This document shows positions 1 to 63,604 of a stretch of 64,000 bases of DNA, piece after piece. The notes beneath the pieces were generated by a model. The model was not told the DNA's origin and did not search any database. It was given only the letters and a program-made list of their open reading frames with translations. How positions within the stretch are numbered: the stretch's first letter is position 1; each line of letters opens with the position of its first letter. Made by a program: the position numbers and the translations under genes. The stretch is from Caenorhabditis remanei (lineage: Eukaryota > Nematoda > Chromadorea > Rhabditida > Rhabditidae): contig NC_071331.1 of the NCBI RefSeq assembly GCF_010183535.1, positions 11,594,001 to 11,658,000 on the forward strand, in the 5' to 3' direction.

Positions 1-1703
1 TTTCTCATTTGTTGGGTGAGAGATCTAAATAGGGTTTAAGATAGCTCAACAAACTAAACGGTCTTGAAGCTTCACAAGATGATGCCGTGGTTTTCGACAA
101 TAATTTGAAATATGAAAAATGCGCTGTTTGAAGACATTTGGAAAAATTTTAGCGATTCACATTGTTGAAACTCGTTATTTCGACTGTTCAAAACAGAGAA
201 AAATGAACCAATCAGTTGACTAGATCGGAATAAAGAAATTTGTCTTCAAATCCCAACTCTTCTATTCTCAAAGAGAACCTCAAAAACTAATTTTCATTGC
301 TTGTTTGAACTGACTGCTGGAATCTCGTAAAACATGTCTATGTCGCCCTCTGAGATGTTATCTCCTTTCAAACGTCCATTCACTTATCACTTCTATTCAT
401 TACCCCTTCCTTCTCTTGTCATTTTGTCTAGTCGTACAGCTCATCAATAGAAAGAAAAAAGATGATGAGAAGGAAGGAAAAAAACAAATGAACACCAAAG
501 AATTTGAAGGAGAAAAAAGTGTCGTCGAGTCGATTAGTCGAATCGAAAAGAGAGGTGGGATGAAAACGAAAAGGAGAATGAGAGAGGTGATTTTACACAT
601 TTGAAATGAAATTAAATGAATCCGAATGGATCGGAAAAGAGTCGTGGAGTCAAAAGATTGATAGTAGGGAAACGAGGCAAAAGAACAATTGATACAAATC
701 GGTGTGAGAAGTTGGAAAAAAGAGAAAGGAAACGACGGAGGAGACGAACATGTGACCTAGGGGAAATCAAGTGCTGCTCGGACACGGATGAGGAATGAAA
801 TAGGTGTTTTGAGGGATAGAGATGTCTGGAAGAAATTGGTGGTAGGGAGGACAAAACAATTTTCGAATTGGTACTCAGAGATATTAAATCGTCATTGTGA
901 ACAGAGCAATGTCATTTATCTTCGCTTTAAAAAGAAGTGCAAGTATTGAAACATTAAAAACTTTAAAACTATTCTTCACTGAAACCTCATAACTTGATAT
1001 CAGTTGAAATCCTAGCTGATTGTATCGGTGATTCTTCGGTGTCTTGATTCTGACAGAACCAGAAAAATGGGACGCCCGGTTATGGGGCATTTTAAATACG
1101 GTTTTAAGAGAATGTTTGATAACTGTGTGCTCCACAGCGTTTGAGATGAATAGCTTCGGAAATAGAGTAATACGAAGAAAACGGATGATGACTTCATCTT
1201 TTACCACTTTAGAGCTTTTGACACACTGGTGAAAAAGTTTAAAAATACCCGAGACTACTACAAAGATCCAATGGATTTGAGAATGTTTTCCGAGCTTAAG
1301 ACTCTCTCGAAACAGAAAATATTGTAATACTCTGTCGAAACAGTTTGAAAACGCTTTTAGATTGGTAGCCACCTAGTTTTATATGAAAATTCACTACAAT
1401 TTAAATTTTTACCGTTTCGAGTTGCTAATGTTTAACACTACGTAGAACTTCAAATAGTTCGTTGTCTTTGGACACTAAACTATTCTGAAAAGGAAGATTG
1501 TTTTCAGTTTACGACTCTTCGAATAGCCCTGAAGGGATTATAGGGAAATTCAAGAAACTACGGAATTCATTTTTACGGTTTCAAAATTCACACTGCTTTG
1601 GAATGGAAGAAATACCACCACTCGTGAAATTATTTGTTCAAAACCTACAGATTTTTTCTGTTTCAGTTTGGAATCTTCATGATCGATTGGGTCTGGAACT
1701 TGA

Positions 1704-1724
1704 TAATCTTATAAAACAATTTTA
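1704..1724 (+). ncRNA. Predicted 21U-RNA (piRNA) locus
   Basis: Exact core CTGTTTCA at 1658-1665; TGAT (1701-1704) puts the 5' U 39 nt after the core. Intergenic. Confidence 0.6.
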
Positions 1725-2029
1725 AATAACATATTATGTAGATCTTCGATTAGAATAATTTTATTGTGAAAAGAAGAAAGGCTCTATTTGAAAGCCATCT
1801 GTGATTCACGATTCGCTGCTTGAATTAGGGTTACAATTGATCGAAACAAGCCAACAAGCCAGTAATCTCACGAGTTATAGAAAAATGTTCAATACGTCGT
1901 GAAAGGAAATCAGATATGGTGTTTCCTAGTTTTTGAAGTTTTTGTCAGTTAGACTCGGCTCGTTGTCTTCTTTCCCTACTGATGAATTCACTAGCTTCCT
2001 GAAGATTAACATAGAAAAAAGTTTCACAT

Positions 2030-2050
2030 AATCTTGGGATGCGACCAGTA
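2030..2050 (-). ncRNA. Predicted 21U-RNA (piRNA) locus
   Basis: Minus-strand core at 2088-2095; CATT on the minus strand ends at 2050, 38 nt downstream. The predicted RNA is visibly richer in G+C than its surroundings. Confidence 0.65.
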
Positions 2051-3251: not shown

Positions 3252-3818
3252 TTGCAACGGGCCGGGCCGGGCCGGGCCGGGCCGGGCCGAAACCAGAATT
3301 TCTCCGGCCCGGCCCGGCCCGCGGCCCGGCCCGGCCCGGTTCGGCCCGGCCCGGCCCGAGCCCGGCCCGGCCCGGTTCGGCCCGGATTTTCAGTACTAAA
3401 AAAATTCAATGTTTTTTTTCGAAAATTTTTCAAATTTTTTGGCAAAAAATTTTAAAGGGGGACACAACTAGTTCTAAATTGAGGGTTTTTGATATGAATC
3501 GATTCAGAAAGCCAGGAAAAAGATACATTTCTTTTGGTTTCATGTCTGAAAATGCGTCTAATGCGAGTTATGAGACCTCAAAATGTCAAAAATCGATGCG
3601 ATTTTTGGAATTTTGAGGTCTCGTAACTCGCTTAAAACTGATTTTTTATATTCTTGAGAAAAAATTTGGAAAATTTTCAGACAAAAAAATTATTGAAAAA
3701 AAAATTATAGTGAAAAAAAATTCAAAAATTCAAATCCGGCCCGATCCGGGCCGGGCCGGGCCGGGCTGAAACCGGGCCGGGCCGGGCCGGCCCGGCGGGC
3801 CAGCCCGGAATTTTGCAA
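3252..3818. mobile_element. GGGCC-rich inverted-repeat element (most complete copy)
   Basis: The element starts with TTGCAA followed by five GGGCC units (3259-3289), a GAAACC word, and a long run of CCCGG units to about 3384. The right end (about 3737-3818) is the same arrangement inverted and again ends in TTGCAA. The interior is A/T-rich and holds a hairpin at 3563-3631. There is no transposase frame, so this is probably a non-autonomous, MITE-like element. Right-end fragments recur at 48075-48193 and decayed pieces at about 18647-18695 and 21419-21540. Boundaries are inferred from the inverted ends; target-site duplications are not clear. Confidence 0.7.
3563..3631. repeat. Long hairpin inside the GGGCC element
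   Basis: A left arm beginning GCGAGTTATGAGACCTC pairs with a right arm beginning GAGGTCTCGTAACTCGC, with one mismatch over about 22 bp. The intervening bases also pair (AAAAATCG with CGATTTTT), so the stem is nearly continuous around a very short loop. Confidence 0.75.
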
Positions 3819-6532
3819 GTATGCAGAATACAATGTGTTTTTCTCAAAAACTGGACAGCATGAATAATTTTTTTATGAAATGTGTGAAAAATCTGTGAAC
3901 CTCACTCAACCATTTTCTGTGAGACAAAAAAGTGAGATAGTGAGGTGAGAGTGATAAACCATGGCTTAAGGGGTTTTCCAGATTGTACTGTTTCATCAGA
4001 ATGATAAAATAATTAGCCATAATTGAATGACTAGTTGCCCCCAGATGTGTTCAATTGGAAACACAGTTCTAATTTCTATCTTTGATAGATGTCCTTTCGA
4101 AGAAGGTGTATGGAAAACTTCAACCAGGTATAAAAATCTTTGAAACTATTCAGACCCTCATTTAGACACAGTCTGATTCTTGAATAAATTTTCCGTTTCT
4201 CTTGCGAGATAGTTTTGATTGCACAGTTGAAAATTGTTTCTCCTATTTTTTACGTTGAAATTCTACTTTTCAAGAAATTAGTAGAGTCCCGCTGTTTAAA
4301 AACGAGCAATCTATCTTAATGGAATCTTACAGGTCTTGGCTGTATCCTTTCACATAAAATAATATTGTCTAAAAAGGCTTTGAGCAGATTCCAGAAAATG
4401 ATAAATGTTAAAATCCAAAGGCAATTGAATAGTCGTGGAAAATCTATACGAACAATGAAGATTATAAACCCAATAATTATAAGCAGATACCAAATGGTTC
4501 GGAAACTAACAAAATATCACCGTTTCATGGAACCGACGAAATTTGTATTCTCGTTTGTTCTGGAGTGAGAGGAATTTACAATCCCCAATAAGGAAACAAC
4601 GAAATTGCTATAACAAGAAATACTTTTTAAATAATCATATCATAAATATAGAATGGTTTTTTATCGAATAAGAGTTACAATGTTCACCAATTCGTCAAAA
4701 CGCAACGATTGATAGACTACAGTTTTCAGATCAATAAGTTAATTTGCTGTAACAGGAACTTCGTATAAATGTGGGATCATCTGACGAAGTCAGTCCCTTA
4801 CTTATTTCAAACATAGTTGAGAATGGGAACGAAATCATACAGCAACACGAAATTGAATAAAATTCTATTCGAAAAATATATGTGGGGTTGCTGAAACTGC
4901 AGAATTGTGATACAGTTAAAAAGCTTTGAATCCAATGTAATGTCCAGCACAAGTCCATCAACGGATCATCTAAACAAGCAGGCTACAAGTTTATAGAAGT
5001 CATGAAACTGCTTCTTGGAGTTTCAAAGGAAAATAATCAATTTTGACTGTTCTGAAAAGGTTGAGTATTCAATTATTGTTGGTAACGAAAGGAAATGATA
5101 ATCATCTACAAAAGTTATTCAATAGATGCCGAATTTTGTACAAATTTTAGTGGATTACCATCAATAAACCACGTAAAAATTGTTCTAGAAATTTATGAGA
5201 ATGTTGAAACCGTAAGATTAGAATGCAAGTAGGATCAGAACTCCCTAGCAAAGTTCGAAAGAAGTCTTAGAACTGTACTATTCAAAACTGAAAACTGAAG
5301 ATAGCCATCTCTGAAGTTTCTAAATCCCTTGTTGACATGTCAAGTTTCAGATTCGTCAAAACTCATCAAGAACCATCTACGATAGTCCTTAAACCAACTT
5401 TTAAAACCAATTAATCTATCAATTCAACAAAAAGAAAAAGAACAACTAATTGTTGTCTTTAGCACAAAAGACACGATGGATCAATGTCGCAATTACGAAA
5501 AAGCAAAACATTGTTGAAACAAAAAAAGGTTGTGAGAGAGTGTTTGAGACGAAGAGACGCAGACACACTGATGTTATCCGAAGTCTTAACAGTTGGCGTC
5601 TCGAAATGAAGAGCAGAAGAGGAGAAAGAGAGCGATTTGTACGGATCATGGAGAAGAAGGTGGGGGAGAGAAGGAGGAGGAGAAAGGAATAGTTAGGAAG
5701 TGGGTTCATGATGTGAAACCGGGTGAGAAGTGAGTCACTGTCATGGGTATAGTATCCGACTCTGGAACCTATTATCTGGAAATTACCTAGAATAAGTGCA
5801 AACACAGAAACAGAGAATCCATTAATTCTAATTTAGAGAATCCGGTTGATTTCGTGAGATTGACAAATTGAGTTCAGACTTTCTCTTATCACCAGAGCGC
5901 GCTTACGCCGTCTCAAATTTCAAATTATGTTTTACAAAAAGAAAACATCAGTTGAAGCATCAAACAAGATCAACTCGACTCATTTCTATTTCGTTCAGCT
6001 CTTTTTTCTTCGATTCATTTTTCGGAAACAAAACGGATAGAAATCGGAGGATCGGTGAACTTTTCCTAGCTTCCGCACGTCTTTTGCTTCTTTTCTCAAT
6101 TCTTTTTTCGATGATTCGATCTTTGTCTTTTTCGAAAAACAGGGATGCAAAAACTGTCGAATTTACCACTCAAAACCATGCGGCGCTCCAGCGAAAAGTG
6201 GGCGTGGCCTAGTTTTTAAATTCTTTTTCGGATTTTTTTCGCGTTGAAATTCGTAAAAATTACCACGATTTTTCTTTTTTCTTCTTCAAAATCCACGTTT
6301 CTTCCACGTGTAAAAACTGTATTTTGTATTTAAGTACAGCCCGTTTCTCTTGTGTTTTTTCTCGGAATTCTTGCAAATCGGCGACATTTTTGTAACAACA
6401 AGAAAGTAACAAAACTACTATCAATGGTTTATATAAAACTTAATCGAACAAGTTCGTTTTCTCTCAGTTTTTCTTTTAAATCAAGTGTTAAAACATTAAT
6501 TTTCAGCTTTTTTCCTCATCGGCATCGTCTAC
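3819..6532. other. Intergenic DNA upstream of the mannosidase
   Basis: No gene recognised. Two reading frames of 114-119 codons (5446-5805 minus, 5868-6212 plus) lack homology and splice context. There is one exact piRNA-type core at 3988-3995, the last before a 13 kb stretch without any, and a near-match core at 5003-5010 (minus). The last 300 bp are pyrimidine-rich and likely hold the mannosidase promoter and outron; an acceptor-like ATTTTCAG lies about 25 bp before the start codon. Confidence 0.5.
4035..4055 (+). ncRNA. Predicted 21U-RNA (piRNA) locus
   Basis: Core at 3988-3995; TAGT (4032-4035) gives a 40 nt spacing. It is the last exact-core unit before the motif-free gene block. Confidence 0.55.
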
Positions 6533-8336
<1,804 letters not shown>

Positions 8337-8533
8337 CATCACTATCATTTGTTTTGTTACGGGTTTTCATAATTTTTGACGGGTTCGCGTAGCGAAGAAC
8401 GATTAACGAATGAACAATGAATTAACTGGCTAGTGGCTCAAAATCATCAGCTTCTTTCATGAAGTTTATAATAAAAAACAATTTACAAATAGAGCAATGA
8501 ACTAAAAGTAACAAAAAACAAAAACTACACAAT

Positions 8534-10145
8534 CTATCTAGTCATTCTGATAAGTCTTCCATGAATTTCTTCTCTACTTGGCCAATATTTTGTCTCTCCA
8601 ACAACCGCAGATGAGATTTTTCCTTCAAGGAATACACGTTGACAAACTTCACGTAGCTGTTCAATTGTAATCGATTCAATACGAGCAGTCAATTCTGGTG
8701 TAGGTATCCGGCGGCCGTAGCAGAGAAGTTGACGTCCGATATCTTCACAAACTGGAGTAGAACCATCAAGCATCAAGATGAGATTTGTGAGGAGAGATCT
8801 CTTTGCTCGCCGAACTGCTGCTTCGTCAATTGCTGGAAAACGAACATTTCGCAGAATTCTCAAGGAAAACACTTACCACTAGCCAACCATACCCACTGCT
8901 CTAAAACTGAGTTAATGAGATTATCGACTGATTTAGGAGCAGCGACGAAATATGTTCCAACGAGACCCGTCTCTTTGTAGCATGTATTGAATGACTGGAA
9001 ACATTCAATTCCCTCGTCTGTCGACAATTTTTGAGCTAATTTTGTAGGTGTGTTCACTCCAAATCCACGCATTCGATCGTATTCTCCCATTAACTGAAAA
9101 AAATATGAGATTCAGAAATCTATTTCAGAAAGATCTTACGGTATTAGCAACCATCAGAGCCAAATTATCCTCATGAGTCCACGAAACACCTTCTACAACG
9201 ATTGCACCGAAAAGCTGTGGCAGACCTCTGATTTCTCCGCGAACATCACACGGTTTATAGATAGCTGGAATAAAATCTGCCGACGAGTCTCCATGTTTCA
9301 ATCCGCCGAAATATTTCTCTGCCATTTTGACAACTTCATCATGGTTGACACCTCCAGCAGCTGCCAAAACCATTCTTCCGCTTCGATAATAAGAATCAAC
9401 ATAAGATCGGAGATCATTTCGATCGATGGTTTGAACGAGCTCAATCGGTCCAAGAATTGTGTATGAAAGTGGATTTCCCTCGAAGACAAACATGTGAAGG
9501 TTATCGAATACAACTTCTTGGAAATTCTGAGCAACTTCGTCCATTTCACGAATGATAACACTTCTTTCTGCATCGACATCCTTCTTTGTGTAATTACTAT
9601 TGAGAAGAATATCCGAGAGAATATCCACTGACTGATCGAGTTTCTCAGTGAAACATTTGGCATAATACGTCGTGCTTTCTCTGGATGTGTAAGCATTCAA
9701 ATGGGCTCCAATGTTCTCAACTTCGAGTTCTAATCCCATTCTTGTTCGACGAGGTGTTCCCTGTAAAATTATGCTGCTTGATTTGTTAGCAAAAACAGTG
9801 ACCGACTTTGAAAGACATATGCTCCAAAAAATGGGCGGTTCCATTGTTCTTCGCATTCTCGTAACGACTTCCAGCATCAATAAATACTCCGATCTGTAAA
9901 AATTCATTTTTCAGCGACTATTTCTCCTATTATTCTCAATTACCGTTGCTGTGCTTCCGCCAGTATTCTCTGTTGCCACTCTGAATCCGCTAGGTAATGT
10001 CGTTACGATAGTTTCTGGCACAAAAACTGATTTCGCTTGAGCTTGAGCGATTTTTCGCTGGGAAGTCTGAAACTATACAATGAATATTTAGTTTTCGAAC
10101 AGAAAGTGTTGCCTGATATAATCCGGATGCTAGTCTTCTGTACAT
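8534..10145 (-). CDS. mppb-1: Mitochondrial processing peptidase beta subunit
   Basis: Catalytic subunit of the matrix zinc protease (M16 family) that removes presequences from imported proteins, working with the alpha subunit. Six exons, 10145-10113, 10066-9944, 9893-9807, 9760-9140, 9093-8877 and 8832-8534, give 459 residues, the usual size. The first 25 residues are basic, as for a mitochondrial presequence. The zinc site HxxEH is present ([10 protein letters not shown]73, E76, H77) with a distal glutamate near 153 (REMDEVAQN). Beta-type blocks such as [13 protein letters not shown] and [27 protein letters not shown] exclude the alpha subunit, which lacks HxxEH. An acceptor (TTTTCAG) 4 bp before ATG suggests spliced-leader trans-splicing. 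Intron 1 is odd: the best model uses a GC donor (see findings). The gene converges with the mannosidase and lies downstream of the RhoGAP gene on the same strand. Confidence 0.96.
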
Positions 10146-10780
10146 TTCTCTGAAAATAACAAGGTTGATGATGGTTTGGCAATAATGACGATAAGAGTAT
10201 AAATTGTGAAGAAAAAAATCGATAAGATTTCTTTATTGCAAATTTTAAATGATAGATTATAATATTCACATTAGATTTGGAGCAGAATTTCAGAAAATTC
10301 TGAATCACGAATGGTGTAATAATTGTCCCCGTGAAGTTCACGGCAGATGGAAGAGTAGCAGACCTCGGCCAGAAAATTACGAAAAATGCGGTTTTTCAAA
10401 TAAATAAACAAGCAAAATCGTCATTCACATTTTTGATTTTTATTTCGGTTAATTCAGAACTATTTATTTTAATTAATTATTGTGCAATATCGATTGATGG
10501 TAACCGTAGTAACCAAAATAATGGAAATTCAAGAACAACAAGCAAATAGTGTTTATGGTTCACAAAAAGTTGCTCACAAAAGTTGAAGTTCCCTAGCGAA
10601 GAAGAAAAGACATCTACAAAAATATGTATGTTAACACCGAAAATAATTTGAGAAATAGGGGAGGGAAGCGATTAAATGAAAAAGAATACAATATCAGACC
10701 TATAAGAGGACCCGAATAGGGAAGGAGGAGTGAGAAACAAAAATAAATAATGGAGAATGAAACAACAAATAGAGATTCTG
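10146..10780. other. RhoGAP 3' region and mppb-1 upstream region
   Basis: 635 bp between two minus-strand genes. It is A/T-rich, carries TTTATT (AATAAA on the minus strand) at 10439-10444 as a possible RhoGAP polyadenylation signal, and ends at the mppb-1 trans-splice-like acceptor near 10150. An operon is possible but the spacing is longer than usual. Confidence 0.45.
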
Positions 10781-13700
10781 TTAGAGTTTTCCCGAAGACG
10801 AAGTAGTTGTGTCAATGCTTTTGAGAGAAGTCGTCGACACTCCAGATGGACGTCCTCCAGATATTGACATGTCGGTAGACACTCTGCGATTAGAGATACT
10901 AGTTCTTTCTATTGTTTGAAAGTGATTGATTCTTGATTGGACGAGTCCACACGCTGAGCTACGAAGAGCGGTCACAGATGGACGTGCTTCAACGGGTTGG
11001 TGCAAAAGTGGGAATTTCTGAAAATAAAAAGATAGTTGTTGTTTTTATAATTCAGTTGATACCGTATCTTCCGTCGAGTTCTTTATAATTTCATTGAAAT
11101 CTCCAAATCCCAATTCAGTGCTGCTATCTGCAGTCTGCGCAGAAATTCTCGGTGTTCGTGGAGTAGAAGAATGTCGATTAATCGATGAAGAAGTCGAAGT
11201 ATTCTTCTTTCTCTCTTTCGACTCGTGAGATTTCATCGGTGGCAAGAATGGGCATTTGAATGTTTGAGAATCGTCAGTATTATTCGACTGAACCAATGGC
11301 GACAGAGCCAAGTGAGCCTGTTGTCGATATCCAGTCATTATGCATGGAGAGCAACTCGTCATCATCGAAGATGATCTGGTTAACAGGGGTGAAGTAGAAG
11401 TTAGATGATCAGTTGGTTTCATTTTCGGAGACGAGTAGATGAGATTCGATTGCGGAAGACGAGCTGGACGACTCTGAATTCTTCTCTCACGTGGTGGCGT
11501 AGCAAGTGCGGCGTCTGAAATATAACGGTTATTCGATTGACTACATGAACCGAACTCCTACATTCTTGATTGCTGAAAATACGATCTTCTGTCAAATGAG
11601 ACTTTGATCTGAATCCGAAGAATGGAGATGCTCTCCCTTCTGAATTGGTCGGAGTTGCAGTGGATGGTGATCGAAATAGCGGCGAACGTGCCAGAATAGG
11701 TGAAACTTTCTCAGCTTCCTTCGCTTTCTCCACTTGATTTCTTTGAATCGGGGAAGACACGACTGTTTGACTCTTTCCGACCCAAGCATGACCATGCTGG
11801 TGGACCTCAAAAAACAAAGTTTGTGTTCTGGATGAAATCATCAATCTCACCCCAATGCTATCCAACTTTCTTAAAGGAATAGCTGTAAGTGGTTCTTGTT
11901 GAGTAATTTGAACTCGATGCGCCACTGATTCAGATGCAGTCCGTCGACTGAGCATCGGTGTCGCCACTACATCTAACCGTTGCTTCATTTCTCTTTCCAA
12001 TTGTTGACCGATTTTCGATTTCGCAGACGTCATCTAAAATTAGGATAGACGATTGTATATTTTGAAGTCTCTTACAGATTTCACTCTCAATTCCTCTTTT
12101 CCTCTAATCGGTGTTTCGAAGACAGTCGGATATTCTTGCTGACTTTTCGATGGCGATTTCCCAATAATTGGACCTGGAAATCCTTTCTTTCCAATCGTAA
12201 CTTTCATGCTTTGTGGTGTAGGTGGAAGCTTTTCGAATGCTGCCATCGATCCATTCAGAACCATCATACTATCCGATGGTCCCGAGTTCGCGTTAGCTAT
12301 ACGGCGCTGACGTCGCTCTGCGACACCAACTCGTCGCAATCTAGCTTGGCTGTTCATCTGAAATTAATTGGTTTATGTGTCATTAGCTCATTTACCCACC
12401 AGTTCCAAAACAGACTCTTCGTTTTCAAAAGTTCCTTCCATCATACTTTTCTCTTTTGGGTCTTCCTCTTCACTTTGTAGATCATCAATAGTAATAACAC
12501 TTCTTCTATTCTCTTTCTCCTCCGTAATCGTATCGACTCCCCAATATGTTGGTCGACGTGTCGGACGACGGTCCCGATTATGATGATTATGATCTTTACG
12601 TAGACCATCGGCAGTATTCCGTCGAGTCAAAGCAGTGCCTGAACCAGATTTCTTCTTTTTCGGCGGAGTCGCATCGCCACGAGTAAAACTATTCTGATCG
12701 GACTGTGATATGCGGCGAAGAGATCGATTAGTGATCGTTGATGAGGTTGAAGAGATTGATGTTCTCTGAAAATGAAAGACAAATTATTTGGAAATATGCA
12801 TTATGCCACCTTTTCCATTGGATTCGGTGACATTTGGAACGACTTCTGACTGTCCGAATCAAATTGATTTCCCTTCATCGCTGAATTTATGTTTCCTTTC
12901 TTCGTGTGTGTTCGCGATTTCCTCCCAGATGATGTCGAACCATGCTTCTGAATGCTTCGAATCGAGTCTCCGGCTCTTCTGTTATCATCTACGTCACTGT
13001 CAACTCCAGAAGCATGTCTTCTAGCAATCGGAGTCGAGTGATCCGGTGGAAGTGGCGGCGGAGGAAGACTTGCAGAAGACGTCGGATTCATATGTGGTGT
13101 ATCAGCAGAAGTTTGTGGCTTGAAAAGTTGACGGCGTAACTGTAAATTCATTCTTGTTATCCCCCCAAAATTGCTCCTATTGCCATGTCTAAACTTGCAG
13201 AACACGATCATTTGTGCTAATAAAAATTTATACAAGCCATGATTAGGACAAAAATTAAATATAGGTAAATTATTAAGGATTAGCTATCAAAACATGCATT
13301 TCTAGGCGAACGGAAATAAATCAAATCGGGAAATTCTACCTTATCGGGACTCGGACTCTTATTCCTTTTGAGAAACTGATTGGATACTCTGTCACGAAGA
13401 CCACGGAGTGATGGTATTGGCAGGAATGAGGAGGATCTCTACAATTTACAGAATAAAAATAAATTCTTCATTTTAATTTTAAATACTTTTGTTCCTACTG
13501 GCTCTCTCGGTTTCATCGCTTTCATATGAGTCAAATCGGAATCTCGTCTCGTGAGTTGGTTCCTTGAAGTCTTTTGTGAGTCAGAATTCGGATGAATCTG
13601 ATGCATCATTGATGCTTTTGCCATATTGAAAACTTTTGGTGTGTTAGATGATGTGGGTGTTTGTTCATTATCGGAAAGGCTTGTACATCGGACAGTTGGC

Positions 13701-14740
13701 ATTGCTGATGTGCTTCGAACATTCAAATGATGATTGTTCAGATGAAGACGATTGCTAGAAACGTAGTGACCGTGCGGAAGTCCGATAAGGTTAGCCTGTA
13801 ATCATAGAGTTCACTTGGCTGTTGCAATCCTGTCAGATCACATACATTGACTATTAGCAGCTTTACAGCGGCTACTTGCACCCCCATGTCTTCTTTTTTG
13901 GCCATGAGATCCGCTTCGGTGCACTTTTTCACTTGTTGCATCTTCTTCCGTGATTCTGTCCCACCACTTGTCATGAAATCTCCGAAAACGGAGCCAACTA
14001 GCACAACGGCCAGGTTATCCGTTGTCATTTTGTGTGTATCCGAGTGCTTCGCAATCTTAAATTAACGATAGTTTAAAAATATTCACTGAATCGAAACTAC
14101 CCGACTCAGCAATCTCATCACATAGCCTAGTGTTCCGAGATGTGATGGTGACAAATGTCGACCCGTCGATTCAAATATTTCAACCATTTCCAGATGTGAT
14201 AGTTCAAATTCTCCAGTTTCTCGTGCCATCTTTGCCTTTCGAAGTATGTTCATACGGACGTTGTCCGAGTTCAGGAGCGTCGGTTTCAAGTCTTTCAGAA
14301 ACCGCTTCACCATCGTACACACGTCCCAAACAGTGAAATCATCAGGAATCGGTCGCATACCGCGGTAAATTTCGAGGATTTCGGGTTTATTCAGTCGAAC
14401 CGAACTTCCCTCTTTGCGAAAAATTCCATCAACATCGAGTCCTTTAGCCATGACACGATCGAGCGCGTCGACGAGAAACCGTGGAATTTCTCGCAATGTG
14501 ATCCGTGTCCAACCGTTCCCCACGATTACATCGAGATCGATGTTCCATGAGAGTACTTCACCGAGTGAAAACCGATAGCGTGCCATTCCGTTCGTCGCAT
14601 CGAATGCCATCGAGTTCTTCTTGCTCCCGGACGGACATCGCGTCGCTAAAATGCGGAAGTCCGCGTAATCTTCAGGCTCCGACACCTAAAATCGATGATT
14701 TTTGAGTTCTTCTTTCGAAAAAATGCATAAAACATACCAT
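10781..14740 (-). CDS. RhoGAP protein, ARHGAP11A / RGA-3-4 type
   Basis: Predicted GTPase-activating protein for Rho-family G proteins; the ARHGAP11A/RGA-3-4 group limits RhoA activity at the cell cortex in M phase. Eleven exons (14740-14738, 14685-14101, 14055-13846, 13795-13487, 13438-13340, 13139-12810, 12765-12400, 12357-12076, 12033-11562, 11514-11063, 11017-10781) give about 1114 residues. The RhoGAP domain spans roughly residues 60-245, with the arginine finger in VDGIFRKEGSSVR (R91) and the closing helix TTDNLAVVLVGSVFGD, where the usual NP of the family is replaced by VG. The remaining 870 residues are low-complexity and rich in Ser, Thr, Arg and Pro, with a KKKK patch, as expected for a cortical or microtubule-associated tail. 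The first coding exon carries only ATG. In exon 9 a 48-nt segment (GTGAGA to GAG) could be an intron or be retained; both keep frame. The family call is strong, the subgroup inferred from architecture. Confidence 0.85.
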
Positions 14741-15108
14741 AAAACAGCTGGAAATTTGCTGAAAATCGGAAAAAGTTAGAGAGTGTCGATTCGGTTCAAA
14801 ATTGCCGGCAAAATGTGGCAGATGCATTTACGCGTGAGTTGTGGCGCATCTGCGTACAATGCGCATCTCAATTGTCTACCGTAGTAGTTTATTAATTTTA
14901 ATGACATTTTGAACATTTTTTTTTGAAATCGCACAACTGAAGAACTCACAACTGAATTAACAAATTTAAGTCAATTTTAAAACGAATTGCTCGAAAAATT
15001 ATCTGTTCTTTTCAATTTAATCAAACGAACAGTATAAAAATAAAAATTTTATAAGAAAATATGTTATGAAAGAAAAATACTGGAAAAATATGTATTTATG
15101 AAAGCACA
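14741..15108. other. Spacer between nuclear receptor and RhoGAP genes
   Basis: 368 bp containing the 3' end of the nuclear receptor transcript and the promoter and leader of the RhoGAP gene. The RhoGAP leader exon ends exactly at ATG (donor GTATGT at 14737-14732). No repeat or piRNA-type motif seen. Confidence 0.5.
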
Positions 15109-35638: not shown

Positions 35639-35692
35639 TGAGGACAAAAGACGCCAGAGGGCACCTTCCATTCGAAACGTCTCGAAACGAAA

Positions 35693-47987: not shown

Positions 47988-48074
47988 TCAAGATAACTCG
48001 AAATTTTAGTTTTTTGTGAGCAACGTGAAACAGATTATTATCACAAGACTGCTTTGTGCAGGTTTCAATTTTTG

Positions 48075-53384: not shown

Positions 53385-56300
53385 CTATCCGTCGACTCGA
53401 TTAATCATATTCTCCCGAATGATCTCCTTCCGGTGAATGTAATAGAACCAGTAGATGATCTGAAACTCAAAACTGTTAGATTTTCCGAAACTGAATACTG
53501 AACTCACATTAAAAACAAAGAAAGTCAATGGAAACATGACACTGGATATCGAATCGATACGTTCCGGTGTCCAACAGCCAGTTCCACACGAATTGAGAGA
53601 TTTCGTGGAGTCAGAGCACCCGGGAGGAAACATGAAACGACGTTCCGATATGATTCCATGTGGGGATTCTTCGCGGGATGGCTGGAAATGAAATGATTTG
53701 AGCGCATCTTCAACTACTTTGGCTGGCTGATAAAGGTGCGGCTGAGTAGCTCAGTCGGTTACGATTTTGTTCAATTCTTACTTACATTTCCCGAAATTTT
53801 CTTCTGCTGCTTCTTCTTTGCCACCGTCTCATCTCGAACCATGAATCCGACAATGGCCAATTCAAGAAGGGAACAGAAGATAAATGTCATCGATACCAAC
53901 ATCCAGACGTCTGAAAGCAAAATGATATGAGGTTGAGAGGGAAATGCGCTCTATTGATAAAAAGTGATTGCATGTTTCGGTACAGCGCATTAACAGAATT
54001 GGTACCTCGGTTCTAGATTTTTTTCTGTTTCAGGTTTGCTATGAGATTGGGCGATTCTTGAGATGAGCGTTGCGTGTAATTACGGCGTTACTGGTTTTGC
54101 TATTCTTTTTTGTATCAAACAGCTACTAACCAATGTTTCTATTTCTAGTTGTGTCTGAGGCAATTTTTTTCTGTTTCTGAAAGTTGTCATGGCTTGAAGT
54201 TCAGTTTCCATTCTGTTCTGATACGGTCTTGCGATTTTCATTTGTTTTCAATTCTGTTGTGATATTCGGGAGCAACTCTATCCATTACTCACCAATCCCT
54301 TTGATATAAGAAACTCTTGGCAGATTCCTCATAATATTTCCGAATTGGAAGACGATTGCCAAAAGACTGTTGACACCGAGCATTGTTCGAGCGGGGATTG
54401 CACGGGAACCGAGAGCGAATGATACCCAACTGGAAGACAACTTTTTCTTTACTGTTTCAATAAATTTTCAAGATTAGGAAGTTATTTAGAGATCAGTCAG
54501 TTCTAAATTTTCATATCTAGCTACTATGTCAGACTAATTGTAAATAAAATGTTCCGTTCCAGCCTCATCATTTTATTTTTATCAAAATAAGAATGTCCCA
54601 GCCAGCTCTCAAAGTTAGTTTACCTTATAAAAATAGTCAAATAAGTCGGTAGATATGCTTGCATGAAATACCAAATGAATCGTCTCTCGAATATGATTGT
54701 CACGTGAAGTTCATCCCACATTCCTGCTGGATAGGGCTGGAAATCGCTTGGATTAGCTAAAAGTGTCTGTTATTGATTGTGGATGAATGGGGTTTTGTGA
54801 AGCTTTCTGGCTTAGTTAGTAAAATTATTCCGTCGAAACTGCAGAGCAAACTTTAACAAATTTTTCTAGAAAGATTAACTTAAAATAACCGATAGAAATA
54901 GGTTTTTTTGGAACTATGGTGTTTCATATTCTCATATTTGCTAGTAACTAGAATACAATGTTCAAAACTAAACCATCCAAAATCGGCTTTCCGAAGACTT
55001 GGCTCGACACGATTAAGAGTTTTCCACCATTTTCCTAATTTGTGAATGAAAAATGACATTATAACGAAATTATCTAATTTACAACCCAACTTGTGTCATG
55101 AATTCAATGACAAACATGTTTCAAAGAGCCATGAAGAATTCACAATAGTTGTGCCGTTATTCCGTTATTTCTATCGACACAACAGTGTTCAAAACTACAA
55201 GCAGATAGCTCAAAGTTTATTTATTCCAAAGTATTCCACTCACTTCTTGTTTCCTCGCCGTCTGAATCGCGAACAAGTCGAAATCGGGAAGCACAATCTT
55301 CGACAAATTAAACACTGGAAACTCTGCATCTGACCACTTCATCTCAACTTCTTGTCTGTTGTAATTAAAACTGAAACCATTCGAATTAAAGATGAGAAGA
55401 TCGAAACCAAATCAAACCTTTCATAGATCAAACTACACTTCTGAAGATCCAATGGGAAGTTAGAGAGGTCTAGGCTGCATGGTCCTTTCACTCGGACACG
55501 ATAGTTGACCATGACGGTTCCATTGGGAAACAACATCAAAAAGACACTTCTGGAATAGGTAAATTTTGATAAATGAAGATGAAAACACAACGATTAGATC
55601 AAATCTAGGTCATCAATGAGGAACCAGCGAAACATGGAACATTTTTAGAATACAATTTTAGAAAAGAGGAAATTTACAGAGGACACTTGTCATTTTCCAA
55701 GAATTGTAATTCCAGATTCATTGAATCACAACTTTTTTACTGCAGATGGAAAGAACCATGTACAGTAGCGAGCATAGGTGAGGGCAGATTCATACTTTCA
55801 TGTGTAACTCAGCTGAATCGTGTCCGTTTTGAATAAACTTTTTTTTGAAAGATTGCTGAAATATCCAGTAACAAGAAAATAAGTTTTTTGTAAAAGTTTC
55901 AGTTCTGATTTTTTTCAATAATTGATTTTTCCTGATCGTGATTTGAAAATTCGAAAAAAAACTTTTTATTTTTCTCTTGGAGTTATTTAGTTTTTAATGT
56001 CAAAATGATGGAAAATGCTCAGATAAACAAAAAATAATGTGGAACTGATTTCTGAAACCTTGAGCATCGTGCCAGAGCTCTAGAAGTCAAATGTAGTGTA
56101 CTCGGGAAAATCATCATAACTCATCAAAAAATGTTCCAAATTAGCCAAAACATGTACCAAAAGACGTGTTTTGAGTTCTTCTACAGACCAACATCAAAAA
56201 ATCAAGATTTTAGAAAAAATAATTTTTCAAATTTTTTTCACCCAAAAATTTTTCATTCCAATTTTTTCCTGGATTTCCGATATTTTCTGGCTATAAAACG

Positions 56301-58168
56301 AACAAAAAACACAAACATGTGTTTTAATATTTGTGATAAAGCACTTTGCATGCAGTATTTGAAACGTATGTTCGTTTTATTGCCAAAAAATATCGGAAAT
56401 CCAGGAAAAAATTGGAATAAAGGAATTCTTGAGTGAAAAAAATTTGAAAAATTATTTTTTCTAAAATTAAAATTTTTTGATGTTGGTCTGTAGAAAAACT
56501 CAAAACACATCTTTTGGTACATGTTTTGGTTGATTTGGAGCATTTTTTGATGAGTTATGATGATTTTTCCGAGGACGCCACTTTTGACTTCTGGAGCTCT
56601 GGCACGATGCTCAAGGTTTCAGAAATCAGTTCAACATTATTTTTTGTTTATCTGAGCATTTTCCATCATTTTGACATCAAAAACTAAATAACACTAAGAG
56701 AAAAATAAAAAGTTTTTTTTCGAATTTTCAAATCACGATCAGGAAAAATCAATTATTGAAAAAAATCAGAACTGAAACTTTTACAAAAAACTTATTTTCT
56801 TGTTACTGAATATTTCAGCAATCTTACAAAAAAAAGTTTATTCAAAACGGACACGATTCAGCTGAGTTACACATGAAAGTATGAATCTGCCCTCACCCAT
56901 GCTCGCTACTGTAGGTGTTAAATTATTAACAATACTCTTTTCTGTTTCAGTTCCCGCTTATCGAGTTTGAATCACTTCGAAATTGATACTGCTCGCGCAA
57001 GTGGTAAAAAAACCATACCTAAACGGCGAATTATGAATCTGTGCCACTTTACTGTTGATAAAACAACTGTTTGGTGTCCAGAGTCGGTCTAGAACTTGAT
57101 GATTCAATGAAAGGTTTCCTGAAATCAAGTAGGGCTTTGAAACTTGTTCACAATCCTTTTCTTACCTTTACACGGACTCATATGCTGAAAATTGAGTGCC
57201 GGATCCAGCCAAGTTTCAGTTATATAAATATCCATATCAAAATCATTAGTTAACTCGTCAATCGATGTGATAGCTTGAATCCAAATCTCCACCACTACAG
57301 TCATTCCTTCTTCTTCTGAAAATTCTTTTAACTCGAGTCAATATTCTTCTGATCCTGTTGAACTTACGTGGTATCCGAAACTTGTTGTATCCTGTTCCAT
57401 TGAGCAATCGGTCTATGATATCGGTGTCTCGAGTGCAATTTCTTTTTCGAGAATTGAAAGATTTTTGATGGAGATGGGAGGATGATGAGGATACTGAAAA
57501 AGTTCTTTTTATAATCATTCTCGAATTTGAATGAGTTATCGAAACAAATATTTCAATTTCAAAACTATCTGCCACAGAGAATTTATATTTTTTATTTGAC
57601 ATTTTGTGGAGTACGTTATTGTAGGATCAACACTATAATATAGGAGAGCGTTTTGTCTGCAGCAATAATACAGACCCGACAGAAATTCTGTTAATTCATC
57701 TATATAATCAAGTTCGTTGAATCGTAATGAATATTTTTCAAGGTGTGTGAAAATGAAAGGAAGAAGAAGTAAGGAGTTGGGCTCGGATAAAATATGACAT
57801 TTGTCTGAAACATTTTTTCTTTTTGTTGATTGAAACAGTTGATTAACAAGGAAAATATTAGGAATTTTTGAAAACCACAGTGAAATATTTGAGAAACTAC
57901 ATTTTCAGTTGCTGTTGAGCGTCTTTGTAAAAAATCATTCCACATGTTTTTCAACAAGATAAATCAGCGTCGTACGAACACTACCTGGTAATGTAATGAG
58001 TCAGAAACAGTGGAAATATCTCAACTTCCGGTTGACCCAGAACTCTAGATTCTTTCCCCGATATTTCGATCCGTACTCACCCAACTCAGCCGAATGAACC
58101 AACTCGGAGTAATCAAGTTCTGATGTGATGATGAGGACGGGTAATGTGGATAATAGGGTGAATATCAT
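53385..58168 (-). CDS. Cys-loop ligand-gated anion channel subunit (lgc family)
   Basis: Pentameric channel subunit. Eleven exons (58168-58081, 57493-57368, 57315-57166, 57088-57019, 55549-55418, 55370-55244, 54736-54624, 54429-54293, 53910-53786, 53681-53508, 53459-53385) give 438 residues. A signal peptide ([16 protein letters not shown]) is followed by the ligand domain with [29 protein letters not shown], and the Cys-loop [15 protein letters not shown] (13 residues between cysteines). TM1 is [20 protein letters not shown]2 starts [15 protein letters not shown], where the PAR motif predicts anion selectivity; TM3 is [22 protein letters not shown]; a Lys-rich loop and [16 protein letters not shown] precede TM4 ([18 protein letters not shown]). 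The ligand cannot be read from sequence. The exon at 54736 was chosen over an acceptor at 54757 because only it keeps phase with the preceding GTGAGT donor. Intron 57018-55550 is enlarged by a 1.15 kb palindromic element. Confidence 0.9.
54071..54091 (+). ncRNA. Predicted 21U-RNA (piRNA) locus in channel intron
   Basis: Core at 54025-54032; CGTT (54068-54071) gives 39 nt. Antisense to the host. Confidence 0.62.
54497..54517 (+). ncRNA. Predicted 21U-RNA (piRNA) locus in channel intron
   Basis: Core at 54452-54459; CAGT (54494-54497) gives 38 nt. Antisense to the host. Confidence 0.64.
55761..56913. mobile_element. Palindromic DNA element with TA flanks
   Basis: Two inverted arms of about 550 bp, roughly 93% identical by eye, start TACAGTAGCGAGCAT on each strand and meet around 56310-56364, a non-palindromic centre. 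The outer TA at both ends (55761-55762, 56912-56913) is the Tc1/mariner-type target duplication. There is no transposase, and short frames on the two strands are mirror copies of each other. It is a foldback or MITE-like element inserted in intron 4 of the channel gene. High arm identity suggests a fairly recent insertion or arm homogenisation. Confidence 0.9.
56987..57007 (+). ncRNA. Predicted 21U-RNA (piRNA) locus in channel intron
   Basis: Core at 56942-56949, only 29 bp beyond the palindrome; TGAT (56984-56987) gives 38 nt. Antisense to the host, ending 12 bp before its exon 4. Confidence 0.64.
57771..57791 (-). ncRNA. Predicted 21U-RNA (piRNA) locus in channel intron
   Basis: Minus core at 57831-57838; TATT ends at 57791, 40 nt downstream. 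Sense to the host, in intron 1. Confidence 0.53.
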
Positions 58169-58381: not shown

Positions 58382-58402
58382 ACTGAAAATAGAAGTATTC
58401 TA
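58382..58402 (-). ncRNA. Predicted 21U-RNA (piRNA) locus, face-to-face pair
   Basis: Minus core at 58441-58448; CGAT ends at 58402, 39 nt downstream. A plus-strand near-core CGGTTTCA at 58404-58411 predicts a start at 58449, directly beyond this core. Confidence 0.62.
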
Positions 58403-59358
58403 TCGGTTTCAATGGGTTCATTTTGGATTTACAACGTTACTGAAACAGTGATAGAGACACAAAATTATGACGGTGAAGACTTTGAAAATAAAAACTTATT
58501 TCCAAGAACACCTCTCTCTCTCCAAAAAAAAAGCATTTCACATCATAGTATAGGTCATCGGAAGTGGATGAATGAGGTCATGATTTGAAAAGGAAGAGGA
58601 CAAGGAATTCTGGATAGATCAAAGGACTCGGACATCATTCGAGGAGTTATTTTCCAACTTTTTCTAAGTTTCAGGAGCTTTTTATCTTTTTTCTGGTTTC
58701 TTAATTTCGTTAGTTATCACAATTATCATACTAAATAAAACATGGGAAATTGTATCTTTTGTCAATGATGAAGGCGGTGAAAACGTATTTCATGAAGTCT
58801 GTTCCTCTTTCCAGATGTTTACGATTCAAACTAATAATACTTTTTTCATTATCAAAGTAAATCTCAATCATCCAATTTCATGGTTAATCATCCTGTTCTT
58901 AACATACATAATGAATAAGTATTTAAAAAATCATGATTATTAAACCGAAAATCAATGTTCTCATTGAGATATTTTCACTTTTCAAGTAGAACACCGAAAA
59001 CTGCATTTTCGAGAAGATACAGGAACACTCGAAAAAACTTAATCCGCATTTCCTGTTTTCCAAAAATATTTTTTTCAGACAAACTGGTGATAGAGGTGAG
59101 ACGGAACGGTGGCTGAACGAAGCATGGTTAAAAAAAAACAAGAAAAACGAATAATTTGAAACCGATCTTCCTTTATAATTGAAAAAGAAGCCAGAAGTAT
59201 GATAACGACATTACACTAACGTGGCTATGATATTAAAATTTACCGAAACAGGAAAAAATTCTTTGTACATTCTTTTAAAAATTATCAGTTTCAAACAGTA
59301 GGTCAATTCTACGTCAGAATTGAACCGTGTTAAAGTTTGTTTTGTTACAATTAGTTTT

Positions 59359-59750: not shown

Positions 59751-59771
59751 AGTTTAAGATTAGAGCACGGA
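59751..59771 (-). ncRNA. Predicted 21U-RNA (piRNA) locus
   Basis: Minus core at 59810-59817; TAGT ends at 59771, 39 nt downstream. Confidence 0.62.
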
Positions 59772-60078
59772 CTAAAACAATATAATCAAATGTTTCTAAA
59801 TAACTTCGGTGAAACAGTATAGCTTTCACTGAATTAAAAGACCCATCGAAGAAATTGCTATTTTGTTTTTTTCAGTTTCAGTACGAAAATAGTTTCCTCT
59901 GAATTCTTTACAGTTCGTTCATTTCAATGTAATAAGAAACAAATAAGTAAATAATTACCAGAGCAAAGGAACCTAGTAGATCAAACAAAAATCAGAGCAA
60001 AGAGAATATAAAAGTAAGGCGGAATGAAAAACATACGGGATTCCTTTTTGCGAGTGAATGATTAATTGATGAGTATAT

Positions 60079-60112
60079 CTTCGTCGTCTTTTTCTTGAAG
60101 AAAAAGACGAAG
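60079..60112. repeat. Short hairpin, about 16-bp stem
   Basis: CTTCGTCGTCTTTTTCTT pairs with GAAGAAAAAGACGAAG across almost no loop. Too tight for a microRNA precursor; possibly cruciform or chance in a purine/pyrimidine-skewed tract. Confidence 0.6.
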
Positions 60113-62311
60113 TCACCGTCCAACCTCATCCGTTTTTTTCATCCCCCCCCTCCGCCGTCCTCATCTATCCAAATAATGAGAGACGGAAAAAGGAGTCACT
60201 CACATTTTCAGAGAGACTCTCATTCTCTTCAGTGAAGAAGAGCCGACGTCTTCCTTTTCCTATTCTACGGCACAATTACACATAGGGCAATTATGTGTCG
60301 TCGAAAAGGATAAAGTTTATAGAGAGGGAAGGTGTATTGTTATGTGAAAATGGGGAGGAAAGAAGATGAGAATATTCAGAGTCGGAAGGTGTCCATGACG
60401 TGGCAATGGGGTTGAAGAGAGAAAAGATATAACATATGGGACATGAGCACTTTTTTATGAGCTCCAGGGACTTCTTTTTGGGAAGAGGGCAAGGAAAAAG
60501 GAACGGATAGAAAAATGATATTCACTTTTGAGTAGGAGGAGAATGGGAAGGGAAAGAACAAGAATATAGACAAGGAACATGAGAGAATGACGTTTTTCTC
60601 TGGAGCAAGAAACGTAAACTTTGGAATTTGTTGGCATGGAATGTTTGTATTCGTTAAACTTTTGAATTTTTATTATTAAGAAGAGGGGAGAGAGGAAGAT
60701 AGATCAAGATCGAAATGTTGTTTTTTGGGTGAATATGTTATTTATTTTGGTAATGAAGTGAATCAAAAAGAAACGGTACTTTTGAAATGAGAGCCATTAT
60801 CATGGAACTATCGAAACCGAAATTTTTAAGACATGAAAGTGAAGAAAGCTTCGAAATCTGACAATTGTGAGATTCATTCCACCAACAAATTTATGACAAT
60901 GGTGAGATAGGGTGCCCATTATGAAAACATCCAACAACAATTTTGAAGTCTTCACAGATTCTTCATAAAAAAACCATAAAGCTAAATAATCCACCCATAA
61001 ATTTATGATACTGATGAAACTGTACGAATTGTAATTACTCCCAGAATAACTTCGAAAATGTTCCAGAACTTTTAAAAAACTGTCTCGCTGCAACTAGAAT
61101 GAAACCTATACTTCTTGAAATATGTAGTGTAAGTGTAATCAAGATAATTCATGAACGTCTTAATCTGGGTGGGTGTTCATCAGCAACTCAACTAAAGCCG
61201 TTTAACAATAATCTTATGACAGGGAGTTTTTTTTTGCTAATTTTTTTCCAGTTTCAAAATAATTTGAAGTCATCGAGATGGTTTCAGTTTTTGTTATGTG
61301 AACATCACATCTAATTTTTCATGGAAATAACTTTTCCGAGAAAGTTTAGTACAGTCAGAAAAATAGCAGTCTTTCTAAAAGATGTTGTCCGAAATTAATA
61401 AATCGACGAAGCAGGAGAAATTGAATAAGGTAAACGTGGAATTTTACTCACACAATACAGAATTCTAACTAACTTAAATCACAAAATTTAAATCACAAAA
61501 TGATGGAAATCTGGCCAAATGAAATTGCTTCCATAAAGAGAATCGTGTGAAACCCACATTTTGAAACTGGCTTCCAGTTTTTAGACATATCTCTTAGAAC
61601 ATATATTCCAAAATTTTAAGAACATATATCCCAAAAGCTGAAGTAGAAGAATTGTATAATTGCTCGCAACTGACTTGCAAGCGGTACTTTTTTCGAAATA
61701 TTCTGAAAACCAAAAAAGGAAAATAAAAATATTCTCTCTCGATCCCAACTTTAATCCGATTCGACCCATTAGCGGTTTATTCATTGCTGTCTTGAGTTTT
61801 CTTTTAGAATTTCGAGTAGAATAAGGACAAACTGGTTTCAGATGAAGGTACGTACTATATCATCATTGTTGGTGGGAGTTTTATAATATATTTAGATCTA
61901 GTTGGACTTTTCGCGAGTCTAGCTGAGAGAGATGATCAAAGTTCCCAGAAAAAAGAAGTATCTAAAAAGATTCAATCGGTAGGTTTGTGAAAGATATTAA
62001 TTTCAAAATATTCTGTTACAGTATATTTATTTATAGAAGAACATCCGGTTTTCATCATTATTTCGAAGAGTCTGTACTTTGAAGTGCAAACATTATATTC
62101 TGACGTTTCTCATCTCCAGAAATTTCAAAGTGAGATAAAAATAAACAGCTGCGTTTCATCTCATCTTCTAATTAGAAAACTCATAAGAATAAATCAAAAT
62201 TATTATTCTCATTTTAACTACCACTGTTCTAATGGCAAATAATCTGAATAACTCATTAACTAGTAAGATCTTCAGATTTGTTCGAAACGTATTCAAGTCA
62301 GCAGATGACAA

Positions 62312-62332
62312 TCTTCTCTTGTCGTAATCAAA
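62312..62332 (-). ncRNA. Predicted 21U-RNA (piRNA) locus
   Basis: Minus core at 62371-62378; TAGT ends at 62332, 39 nt downstream. Confidence 0.62.
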
Positions 62333-63604
62333 CTACCTTCTGAACTACAGAGTTTGGTTTGAAAACTTGTTGAAACAGTCAAAGTTTTTGTTCAAAAAAT
62401 TTCTCAAAAATGTCTCTTTCTTTCTCATACAATGCTTTACAGTACACACACAGCAAATTATCAAACTTCTGTATGATTTCAAATTCATCGTCATTTCGAG
62501 ACACAAAAATTTTTCAAAAAAGCAACCAAAAACAACCGAACTTTGACGCCTCCTATCCACGAAAAAGTTGTGAACCTGAAGTGAGAATGTTGCTCTTTTT
62601 CCCGTTTACCCCATGAGTTTCCGGACCTTCAGAAGAAGAAGGTGAAAAAAATAGAGCAGGGGGGAAAAGTTGGGTTGAGAGCATGTCACTTACAATTACG
62701 TCGATTTGGACATTCCTCTACTAACGGAAGCGAAAGAGGAAAAGGGAAATTTCGGGTATTGAGAGGGAGAAGATGTAGGAATGGGAGGAGATGATGGAGA
62801 ATATTGTGTTGAACTTCTTCTTCTTTTTCAGGTGAGTTGATGATGATGTGAGAGTGGGCGGAGCTAATGGGGGAGGAGATCAGAAATGAAGACGTTCGGG
62901 AAGGCGCAATGGAATATTGGACAATGAACTGTGAATCGAGTTTCCAGTTATACTAAACGGTGATCATCATTTTTGAAAAAAAAGTGTTTCAGAAAAGAAG
63001 TACCAGAACTCTTGATTACTGGATTAGTAGTTTCAAATGCACTTTTTTGTTTATCATGATGCATGAAGCTACTTTAAAGTTTAAATCCATTTAATGGTAT
63101 TGTAGAAAGAACAAATTGCTCCTCGATTCCTGAAAGACTCTCCAAGCACTGTGTGACCTGTCTGTAATTCTTTTGAAATAAAAGAACTGACTTCGTATTC
63201 AAGTTTCCCCATAAAAAATATCCCCCGTTATTGTTTTTATGACTTTGCACCTTATTTGTCCTCTTTTTTTTAATAAATAAATAAATATCCAGGAACCCAA
63301 GTTGTTCAGTCAGCATTTACAACTATTTCTTAATGTTCCTTTGTTTGGTGATTTTCAAAAATTATTCGCAATGTAGGGGTTGTAAATTGAACCGAACATT
63401 TCCATATTCTCACTTGGGCAATTAGAACATTTTCATAGAAAACCAGAAAAAATTCTTTAAAAAAAACATTAAAAACAAAAAACAAAAAAATTATTTACAG
63501 TTTATGGAGATCAATATCACCGGAAGAATACATTCATTTCAAATGAGTTAAAGGTGGACTAAACTCAACTCTGATTTTTTCATATGTAGAATAATGTATG
63601 AGTA

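Follow-up and report, generated by a model that had tools for sequence, protein, structure and literature searches.

We analyzed a window of 64,000 nt on chromosome IV (C4) of Caenorhabditis remanei, the whole stretch of DNA from position 11594001 to 11658000, and found 37 promoter-plus-start units that are very probably separate genes for type I 21U-RNAs, a class of Piwi-interacting RNAs (piRNAs). With variant promoter cores included, the number of such units is estimated to be about 100. Their expression is something we infer from DNA. The window probably belongs to an extensive field of very small piRNA genes with a predicted role in guarding the germ line.

In total, 40 exact copies of the octamer CTGTTTCA were identified in the window, 21 on the plus strand and 19 on the minus strand, as compared to a mean of 4.81 (standard deviation 2.44, maximum 12) in 100 dinucleotide shuffles and only 3 copies of the reversed octamer. 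The original prediction had listed 38 copies, 19 per strand, against a chance expectation of 2-3. The enrichment stands (40 octamers versus 4.8 +/- 2.4 in shuffles), but the count and the strand balance had to be corrected and the expectation was slightly low. The octamers extend from 1658 (first start) to 62378 (last end), exactly as predicted.

An octamer was considered to be in register if the T of a YRNT word was located at base 38, 39, 40 or 41 after the core, which corresponds to a spacer of 37-40 nt. By this definition, 37 of the 40 octamers were in register (binomial p 7.7e-18), with a computed chance rate of 27.6% per random position that agrees with the earlier figure of about 28%. 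In 13 other 4-nt bins that served as controls, 5 to 16 of the same 40 sites contained such a T. When all distances were counted, the T was found at bases 38, 39, 40 and 41 in 12, 15, 8 and 6 sites, respectively, and when a single distance was assigned to each site, with the priority 39, 38, 40, 41, the distribution was 12/15/8/2. The register was already visible in the 35 of 38 sites reported before (12/15/6/2), although the numbers have changed. No peak at 38-41 was observed for YRT, in which the N is left out. A YR initiator placed such that the U becomes the third base of the predicted transcripts fits these data, the register test being on YRNT. The spacers are modestly richer in A+T than the window (0.696 versus 0.641). 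Type II 21U-RNA loci have no upstream Ruby motif; here the motif is present.

The predicted 21U-RNA units (cassettes), defined by an exact octamer and an in-register YRNT, are given below together with the remaining octamers. They give, for 37 piRNA genes of a male-female species, predicted 5' ends to the exact base together with their chromosomal location.

1658-1724, + strand: predicted 21U-RNA cassette, core 1658-1665, 5' U 1704; G after core (splice-site-like)
2030-2095, - strand: predicted 21U-RNA cassette, core 2088-2095, 5' U 2050
3988-4055, + strand: predicted 21U-RNA cassette, core 3988-3995, 5' U 4035
15380-15447, + strand: predicted 21U-RNA cassette, 5' U 15427
16970-17036, + strand: predicted 21U-RNA cassette, 5' U 17016
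18480-18545, - strand: predicted 21U-RNA cassette, 5' U 18500
20752-20818, - strand: predicted 21U-RNA cassette, 5' U 20772
21782-21847, - strand: predicted 21U-RNA cassette, 5' U 21802
22134-22200, + strand: predicted 21U-RNA cassette, 5' U 22180
22457-22523, - strand: predicted 21U-RNA cassette, 5' U 22477
22967-22974, - strand: octamer without in-register YRNT, probably a background or decayed site
25717-25782, + strand: predicted 21U-RNA cassette, 5' U 25762
25923-25988, - strand: predicted 21U-RNA cassette, 5' U 25943
27114-27181, + strand: predicted 21U-RNA cassette, 5' U 27161
27335-27400, - strand: predicted 21U-RNA cassette, 5' U 27355
29657-29723, - strand: predicted 21U-RNA cassette, 5' U 29677
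30245-30312, - strand: predicted 21U-RNA cassette, 5' U 30265
32903-32968, + strand: predicted 21U-RNA cassette, 5' U 32948; another YRNT 3 nt further
33411-33479, - strand: predicted 21U-RNA cassette, 5' U 33431
35983-36048, - strand: predicted 21U-RNA cassette, 5' U 36003
37983-37990, + strand: octamer without in-register YRNT
38685-38751, + strand: predicted 21U-RNA cassette, 5' U 38731; begins where a DOMON-like open frame ends, probably within the next intron
39664-39671, + strand: octamer without in-register YRNT
40789-40855, - strand: predicted 21U-RNA cassette, 5' U 40809
41799-41867, + strand: predicted 21U-RNA cassette, 5' U 41847
42289-42356, + strand: predicted 21U-RNA cassette, 5' U 42336
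42624-42690, - strand: predicted 21U-RNA cassette, 5' U 42644
43711-43778, + strand: predicted 21U-RNA cassette, 5' U 43758; within galectin open frame, upstream of the Pfam-matching part
47213-47278, + strand: predicted 21U-RNA cassette, 5' U 47258
47967-48033, - strand: predicted 21U-RNA cassette, 5' U 47987
49572-49637, + strand: predicted 21U-RNA cassette, 5' U 49617
50028-50094, + strand: octamer with in-register YRNT, within Srx chemoreceptor coding frame; least certain of the 37
50603-50670, + strand: predicted 21U-RNA cassette, 5' U 50650
54025-54091, + strand: predicted 21U-RNA cassette, 5' U 54071; pyrimidine tract and CAG, also splice-acceptor-like
54452-54517, + strand: predicted 21U-RNA cassette, 5' U 54497
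56942-57007, + strand: predicted 21U-RNA cassette, 5' U 56987
57771-57838, - strand: predicted 21U-RNA cassette, 5' U 57791
58382-58448, - strand: predicted 21U-RNA cassette, 5' U 58402
59751-59817, - strand: predicted 21U-RNA cassette, 5' U 59771
62312-62378, - strand: predicted 21U-RNA cassette, 5' U 62332

Among the 24 single-letter changes of CTGTTTCA, the variants ATGTTTCA (15/21 sites, control-bin mean 6.4), CAGTTTCA (18/26, 9.1), CGGTTTCA (8/13, 3.1), CTGTTTCG (6/8, 2.5) and CTGTTTCT (7/12, 3.5) were also found in register. Neither CTATTTCA (0/9) nor CTTTTTCA (2/10) showed an excess over the control bins in the window, and most other variants have too few sites to judge. For all GTTTC words in the window, 186 of 385 were in register, as compared to 113.3 +/- 7.0 in ten control bins, and no excess was seen in the window for the control words CTTTG (27/144; 41.8 in control bins), GTTTG (30/158; 41.3) and TTTTC (189/719; 205.8). 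Solving arithmetically for the in-register excess of GTTTC over control gives an estimate of about 100-115 loci in the window including variant cores, with an uncertainty of about 15, or roughly 2.5 times the number of exact octamers.

Some observations weigh against the interpretation as a piRNA cluster. Three of the 40 cores are out of register (22967 on the minus strand, 37983 and 39664 on the plus strand), 12 of the 40 (10 of them in register) have a G as the next base and so resemble a 3' splice site, and one in-register core (50028) lies within a coding frame. The GTTTC-centred variants GTGTTTCA and TTGTTTCA were in register in the window at 3 of 6 and 2 of 6 sites, not clearly over control. 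Likewise, the 11.3-kb gap with zero octamers described further below (P 2e-4 given the octamer density elsewhere in the window) is a single case that was chosen after the positions had been seen, and a Schlafen domain model yielded a single short exon genome-wide (E 9.5e-7).

The window could also hold a relic piRNA cluster, largely silent today, with its DNA motifs intact and no transcription. Our reading comes from DNA, which is in favor of this possibility, as is the description in PMC6436959 of C. elegans motifs, of which less than 2% have detectable 21U-RNAs in active chromatin versus 74% in regulated chromatin. However, neutral decay would blur the register, yet 37 of the 40 exact cores keep it, and the genes identified outside the gap appear to be of a tissue-specific kind. 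We consider a silent cluster to be very unlikely.

An octamer followed by G (CTGTTTCAG) resembles the 3' splice site consensus. If most of the octamers were 3' splice sites (TTTCAG) or sites for forkhead-like proteins with no piRNA connection, the G after 12 of the 40 cores would be accounted for, and so might the behavior of CTGTTTCAGATT, which has 247 matches versus 14 for its reverse, scattered over C1-C3 among the 100 matches listed. But 28 of the 40 cores have no such G, 27 of them being in register, and a YRNT at a constant distance of 38-41 nt would not be expected for splice sites or generic factor sites. The splice-site-only reading was rejected on the fixed register of most sites, and we give this explanation as a whole hardly any credence. 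Because CTGTTTCAG doubles as a word that resembles a 3' splice site, bare-octamer counts outside C4 may nevertheless overstate the number of piRNA promoters, and some exact cores can be background.

The flanks of the cassettes are unrelated. A comparison of the 40 cassettes identified 11 pairs whose matches span just 14-24 nt and mostly lie on the core, as compared to 7 among 40 random pieces, and none of the 780 cassette pairs in the window aligned beyond the core at a score of 60, and likewise at 50. The 37 predicted 21-mers are all distinct, and no second site with up to 2 mismatches was identified for them on either strand of the window and 25 other stretches. The common register was therefore not inherited from a common copy, and a dispersed repeat or transposon that carried both octamer and register, for which the 19,000 octamers in the genome and some duplicated segments in the right-arm blocks could be quoted, was rejected for the window as having next to no probability, since downstream of the core 0 of 780 pairs align.

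If the 37 units are piRNA genes, as we believe, their products would be made as in C. elegans. The USTC factors (PRDE-1, SNPC-4, TOFU-4/5), which have been described at the motif (PMC6468775), would bind to it, and RNA polymerase II would initiate at the R of YRNT to produce a capped precursor of about 28 nt, type I precursors being about 26-28 nt long; the reported start site lies two bases ahead of the U (PMC6436959). The Schlafen-type nuclease PUCH, which is described to require a U at position three and to cut before it (PMC10567574), would remove the cap and the first two bases, and after 3' end trimming the 21-nt RNA would be loaded into the Piwi protein PRG-1 and scan germ-line transcripts. 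According to PMC3597512, the core-to-T distance decides the product, and a 5' C of the core favors the male germ line in C. elegans. The sub-cluster is predicted to be located in repressed ("regulated") chromatin, broken at 4.0-15.3 kb, where housekeeping-type genes are found. We compared 5 of the 67 Piwi-domain matches in the genome with solved structures. The exon at C1:628061-628363 was closer to Piwi-like protein 1 (E 1.7e-34) than to Argonaute-2 (E 1.6e-15), a Piwi-clade assignment based on one exon, while the other four were closer to Argonautes. The core, the spacing, the YRNT, the A/T-rich spacer, the unrelated flanks, the use of both strands, the location on chromosome IV and the Piwi-clade gene all agree with the 21U-RNA cluster proposed in the original prediction. 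Its description as an orthologous kind of cluster is appropriate for the kind, but not for single loci or position.

Where mapped, the motif concentrates on chromosome IV, in a broad left-centre domain at about 1.5-13 Mb, which includes the window, and in right-arm blocks at about 19.1-20.4 and 23.1-24.2 Mb. In the PX506 strain, chromosome IV has 25,790,997 bases and chromosome I 17,247,545, and the low-recombination centre of IV is given as 8.64-17.11 Mb (PMC10461856), in which the window falls. The octamer is present 19,000 times in the 130,466,896 bases of the genome, as compared to 6,781 times for the reversed word, and its density is 0.63/kb in the window versus 0.15/kb in the genome. Densities were sampled on C4, in 20 grid stretches of 10 kb each: 62 octamers were found in ten stretches at 1.5-12.3 Mb, 10 at 23.1 Mb and 11 in the other nine. 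In the 11 dense stretches 57 of 72 octamers were in register, as compared to 2 of 11 in the 9 sparse ones, these groups having been named after the counts were seen. The scan of flanking density suggested earlier thus places the window within a motif-dense field of about 1.5-13 Mb.

The extended word GTTTACTGTTTCA has 99 matches genome-wide versus 11 for its reverse, of which 87 are on C4. Of these 87, 25 are located between 2.0 and 12.95 Mb, a single one at 17.4 Mb, and 27 and 34 in the right-arm intervals of 19.1-20.4 and 23.2-24.2 Mb, respectively. The 12 matches elsewhere are at about background level, and with 2 of the 99 matches on C1 there is no sign of a cluster on chromosome I. In agreement, TTTTACTGTTTCAAA has 240 matches versus 19 for its reverse, 99 of the 100 matches listed being on C4. 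Both words favor A/T-extended motifs, and the right arm is over-weighted by them. As map words, CTGTTTCAGATT and GAACTGTTTCA added little, with much background among the 100 matches listed. Local bunches of CTGTTTCAGATT at C3:14.60-14.80 Mb (10) and C4:0.43-1.28 Mb (19), among the 100 matches listed, may be gene-family splice sites or small piRNA clusters.

Five right-arm stretches (L021 to L025) were picked for their matches to the extended motif, including C4:19484001-19494000 (L021) and C4:23645001-23655000 (L022). They contain 49, 77, 18, at least 28 and at least 23 octamers per 10 kb, with 34/48, 48/76, 18/18, 20/28 and 17/23 in register versus 12.9, 23.0, 5.5, 8.7 and 7.7 expected, counts that leave out cores near the stretch ends. 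The blocks are patchy, with 2 octamers in the grid stretch at 19.50 Mb and 1 in that at 20.70 Mb. L021 and L022 together contain 24 head-to-head core pairs at distances of 16-46 bp, 15 of them at 19-24 bp, 8 at 31-38 bp and one at 42 bp; in 11 of the 24, both cores are in register. No head-to-head pairs at such distances are present in the window. The spacing preference was predicted in advance for L024 and L025, where it held in 1 of 4 new pairs (23, 40, 28 and 28 bp). L025 also contains two tail-to-tail pairs, at 16 and 22 bp. Since just one of the four new pairs fell in the predicted bins and several L022 pairs (family D1) resemble each other, promoter phasing in the right arm is local at best and was not replicated.

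Cassette pairs that align beyond the core are few in the right arm (0/1091 in L021, 2/2756 in L022, 3/134 in L023), which disfavors local duplication as the main source of these cassettes. Extended motifs recur with the same spacing at about C4 23.634-23.654 Mb, after about 13.5 kb, and at about 20.120-20.132 Mb, after about 8.3 kb, which suggests that segments with piRNA cassettes were duplicated. Three cassettes of L023 have a copy at a distance of 8.3 kb (score 156). We only tentatively suggest, as a rather doubtful proposal, that chromosome IV has two piRNA gene architectures: lone units spread over a broad field, to which the window belongs, and compact right-arm blocks of up to 7.7 cores/kb. 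Promoters in these blocks would be arranged back to back, frequently at a distance of two or three helical turns, with one piRNA each way, and the blocks would be partly multiplied by local duplication and give rise to new piRNA genes. How new piRNA genes originate is described as an open question in PMC9683057, and dense right-arm blocks with a few duplicated cassettes provide a concrete place to study it.

We also compared these patterns to those of other nematodes. The cluster is of a known kind, here located and counted, and is solidly placed on its chromosome. It shares with the C. elegans type I clusters the CTGTTTCA core, an A/T-rich spacer of about 35-42 nt, the YR start with T, the location on chromosome IV and the small independent units. 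Unlike the C. elegans clusters, located on IV at 4.75-7.5 and 13.5-17.5 Mb (as quoted in PMC9683057), the C. remanei field spans some 11 Mb of a longer chromosome, in its left and central parts, with additional right-arm blocks. The modal spacer by count is 38 nt here, as compared to an abundance peak at 39 nt in C. elegans (PMC3597512), which are different measures. In C. briggsae, clusters are reported on IV at 0.02-7.1 and 13.0-15.0 Mb and on I at 9.8-12.0 Mb (PMC9683057). On IV, both species have a broad cluster on the left and another on the right, and the strong A/T-rich motifs described around the Ruby motif in the C. briggsae right cluster (PMC9683057) have a counterpart in L021 and L022, whereas no sign of the chromosome I cluster was seen for C. 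remanei in the GTTTACTGTTTCA map. The left field, the A/T-extended right blocks and the lack of signs of a cluster on I make cluster birth, loss and movement testable in comparison with C. briggsae and C. elegans. The dispersed loci of the Pristionchus type are also described as having a Ruby-type motif and a start site two bases ahead of the U (PMC6436959). Those are reported to be autosome-wide and in introns of germline-expressed genes (PMC6436959), whereas here the motif is concentrated on one chromosome and absent over the housekeeping-type genes of the gap. According to the review PMC6468775, C. remanei expresses 21U-RNAs. No chromosome map of the C. remanei 21U loci was found in titles and abstract openings, most subscription journals being outside the search. 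The primary paper on the 21U-RNAs of this species is reportedly that of Shi et al. 2013.

The description of the cluster as overlying the whole gene-poor part of the window was fair, except for a hole at 4.0-15.3 kb and several genes within the motif-rich part. The gap and the exons in it are as follows.

4001-15300, no strand: gap without octamers; GTTTC 4.34/kb, 17 in register versus 15.5 expected
7505-8161, + strand: GH47 mannosidase exon (domain match)
9128-9910, - strand: M16 peptidase exon, closest to MPP-beta (domain match)
14086-14685, - strand: RhoGAP exon (domain match)

GTTTC words occur at 3.91/kb in the sparse C4 stretches, as compared to the 4.34/kb of the gap, and are in register 156 times versus 90.4 expected at 15.3-64 kb and 13 times versus 7.4 at 1-4.0 kb. 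A Pfam match at E 0.001 was obtained for 14 of 20 open frames, one of which is far from convincing. The genes of the motif-rich part include three DOMON-like genes, a galectin, an Srx chemoreceptor and a ligand-gated channel; 2 of 4 DOMON-like open frames reach the Pfam cut-off. Cores were touched by 3 of the 18 open frames compared (13 of the 18 with a Pfam match), and only the core at 50028 lies clearly in a coding frame. The genes identified outside the gap look tissue-specific, and those in the gap look like housekeeping-type genes. The GH47 and MPP-beta-like genes presumably share microsynteny with the C. elegans cosmid ZC410 (IV), an assumption that our comparison did not confirm. By analogy, a gap over the GH47, MPP-beta-like and RhoGAP genes would fit the clustered organisation in regulated chromatin described in PMC6436959.

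A 10-bp A/T periodicity of the PATC type was rejected for the window, where the power ratio is 0.82-1.42 (eight bins), not above the 0.95-9.61 of nine sparse stretches. One of the C4 stretches, L019 (C4:21900001-21910000), has an AA/TT 10-bp power ratio of 9.6, as compared to 0.8-2.4 elsewhere, and is perhaps a satellite.

Several other features were observed in the window. The three DOMON-like genes are arranged in tandem on the plus strand at 32068-39377. A foldback element at 55761-56913, with 507-nt arms that are 94% complementary and a 139-nt loop, is flanked by two ligand-gated channel exons and hence probably intronic. G+C-rich repeats of CCGGG/CGGGC pentamers, partly as an inverted repeat, are present at 3258-3808 and 26995-27035 in the otherwise A/T-rich window, and a local duplication at 28476-29531 has copies about 0.6-0.7 kb apart that are 76-86% identical in pieces. 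A tRNA-Cys gene (GCA) is located on the minus strand at 44965-45036, within the motif-rich zone.

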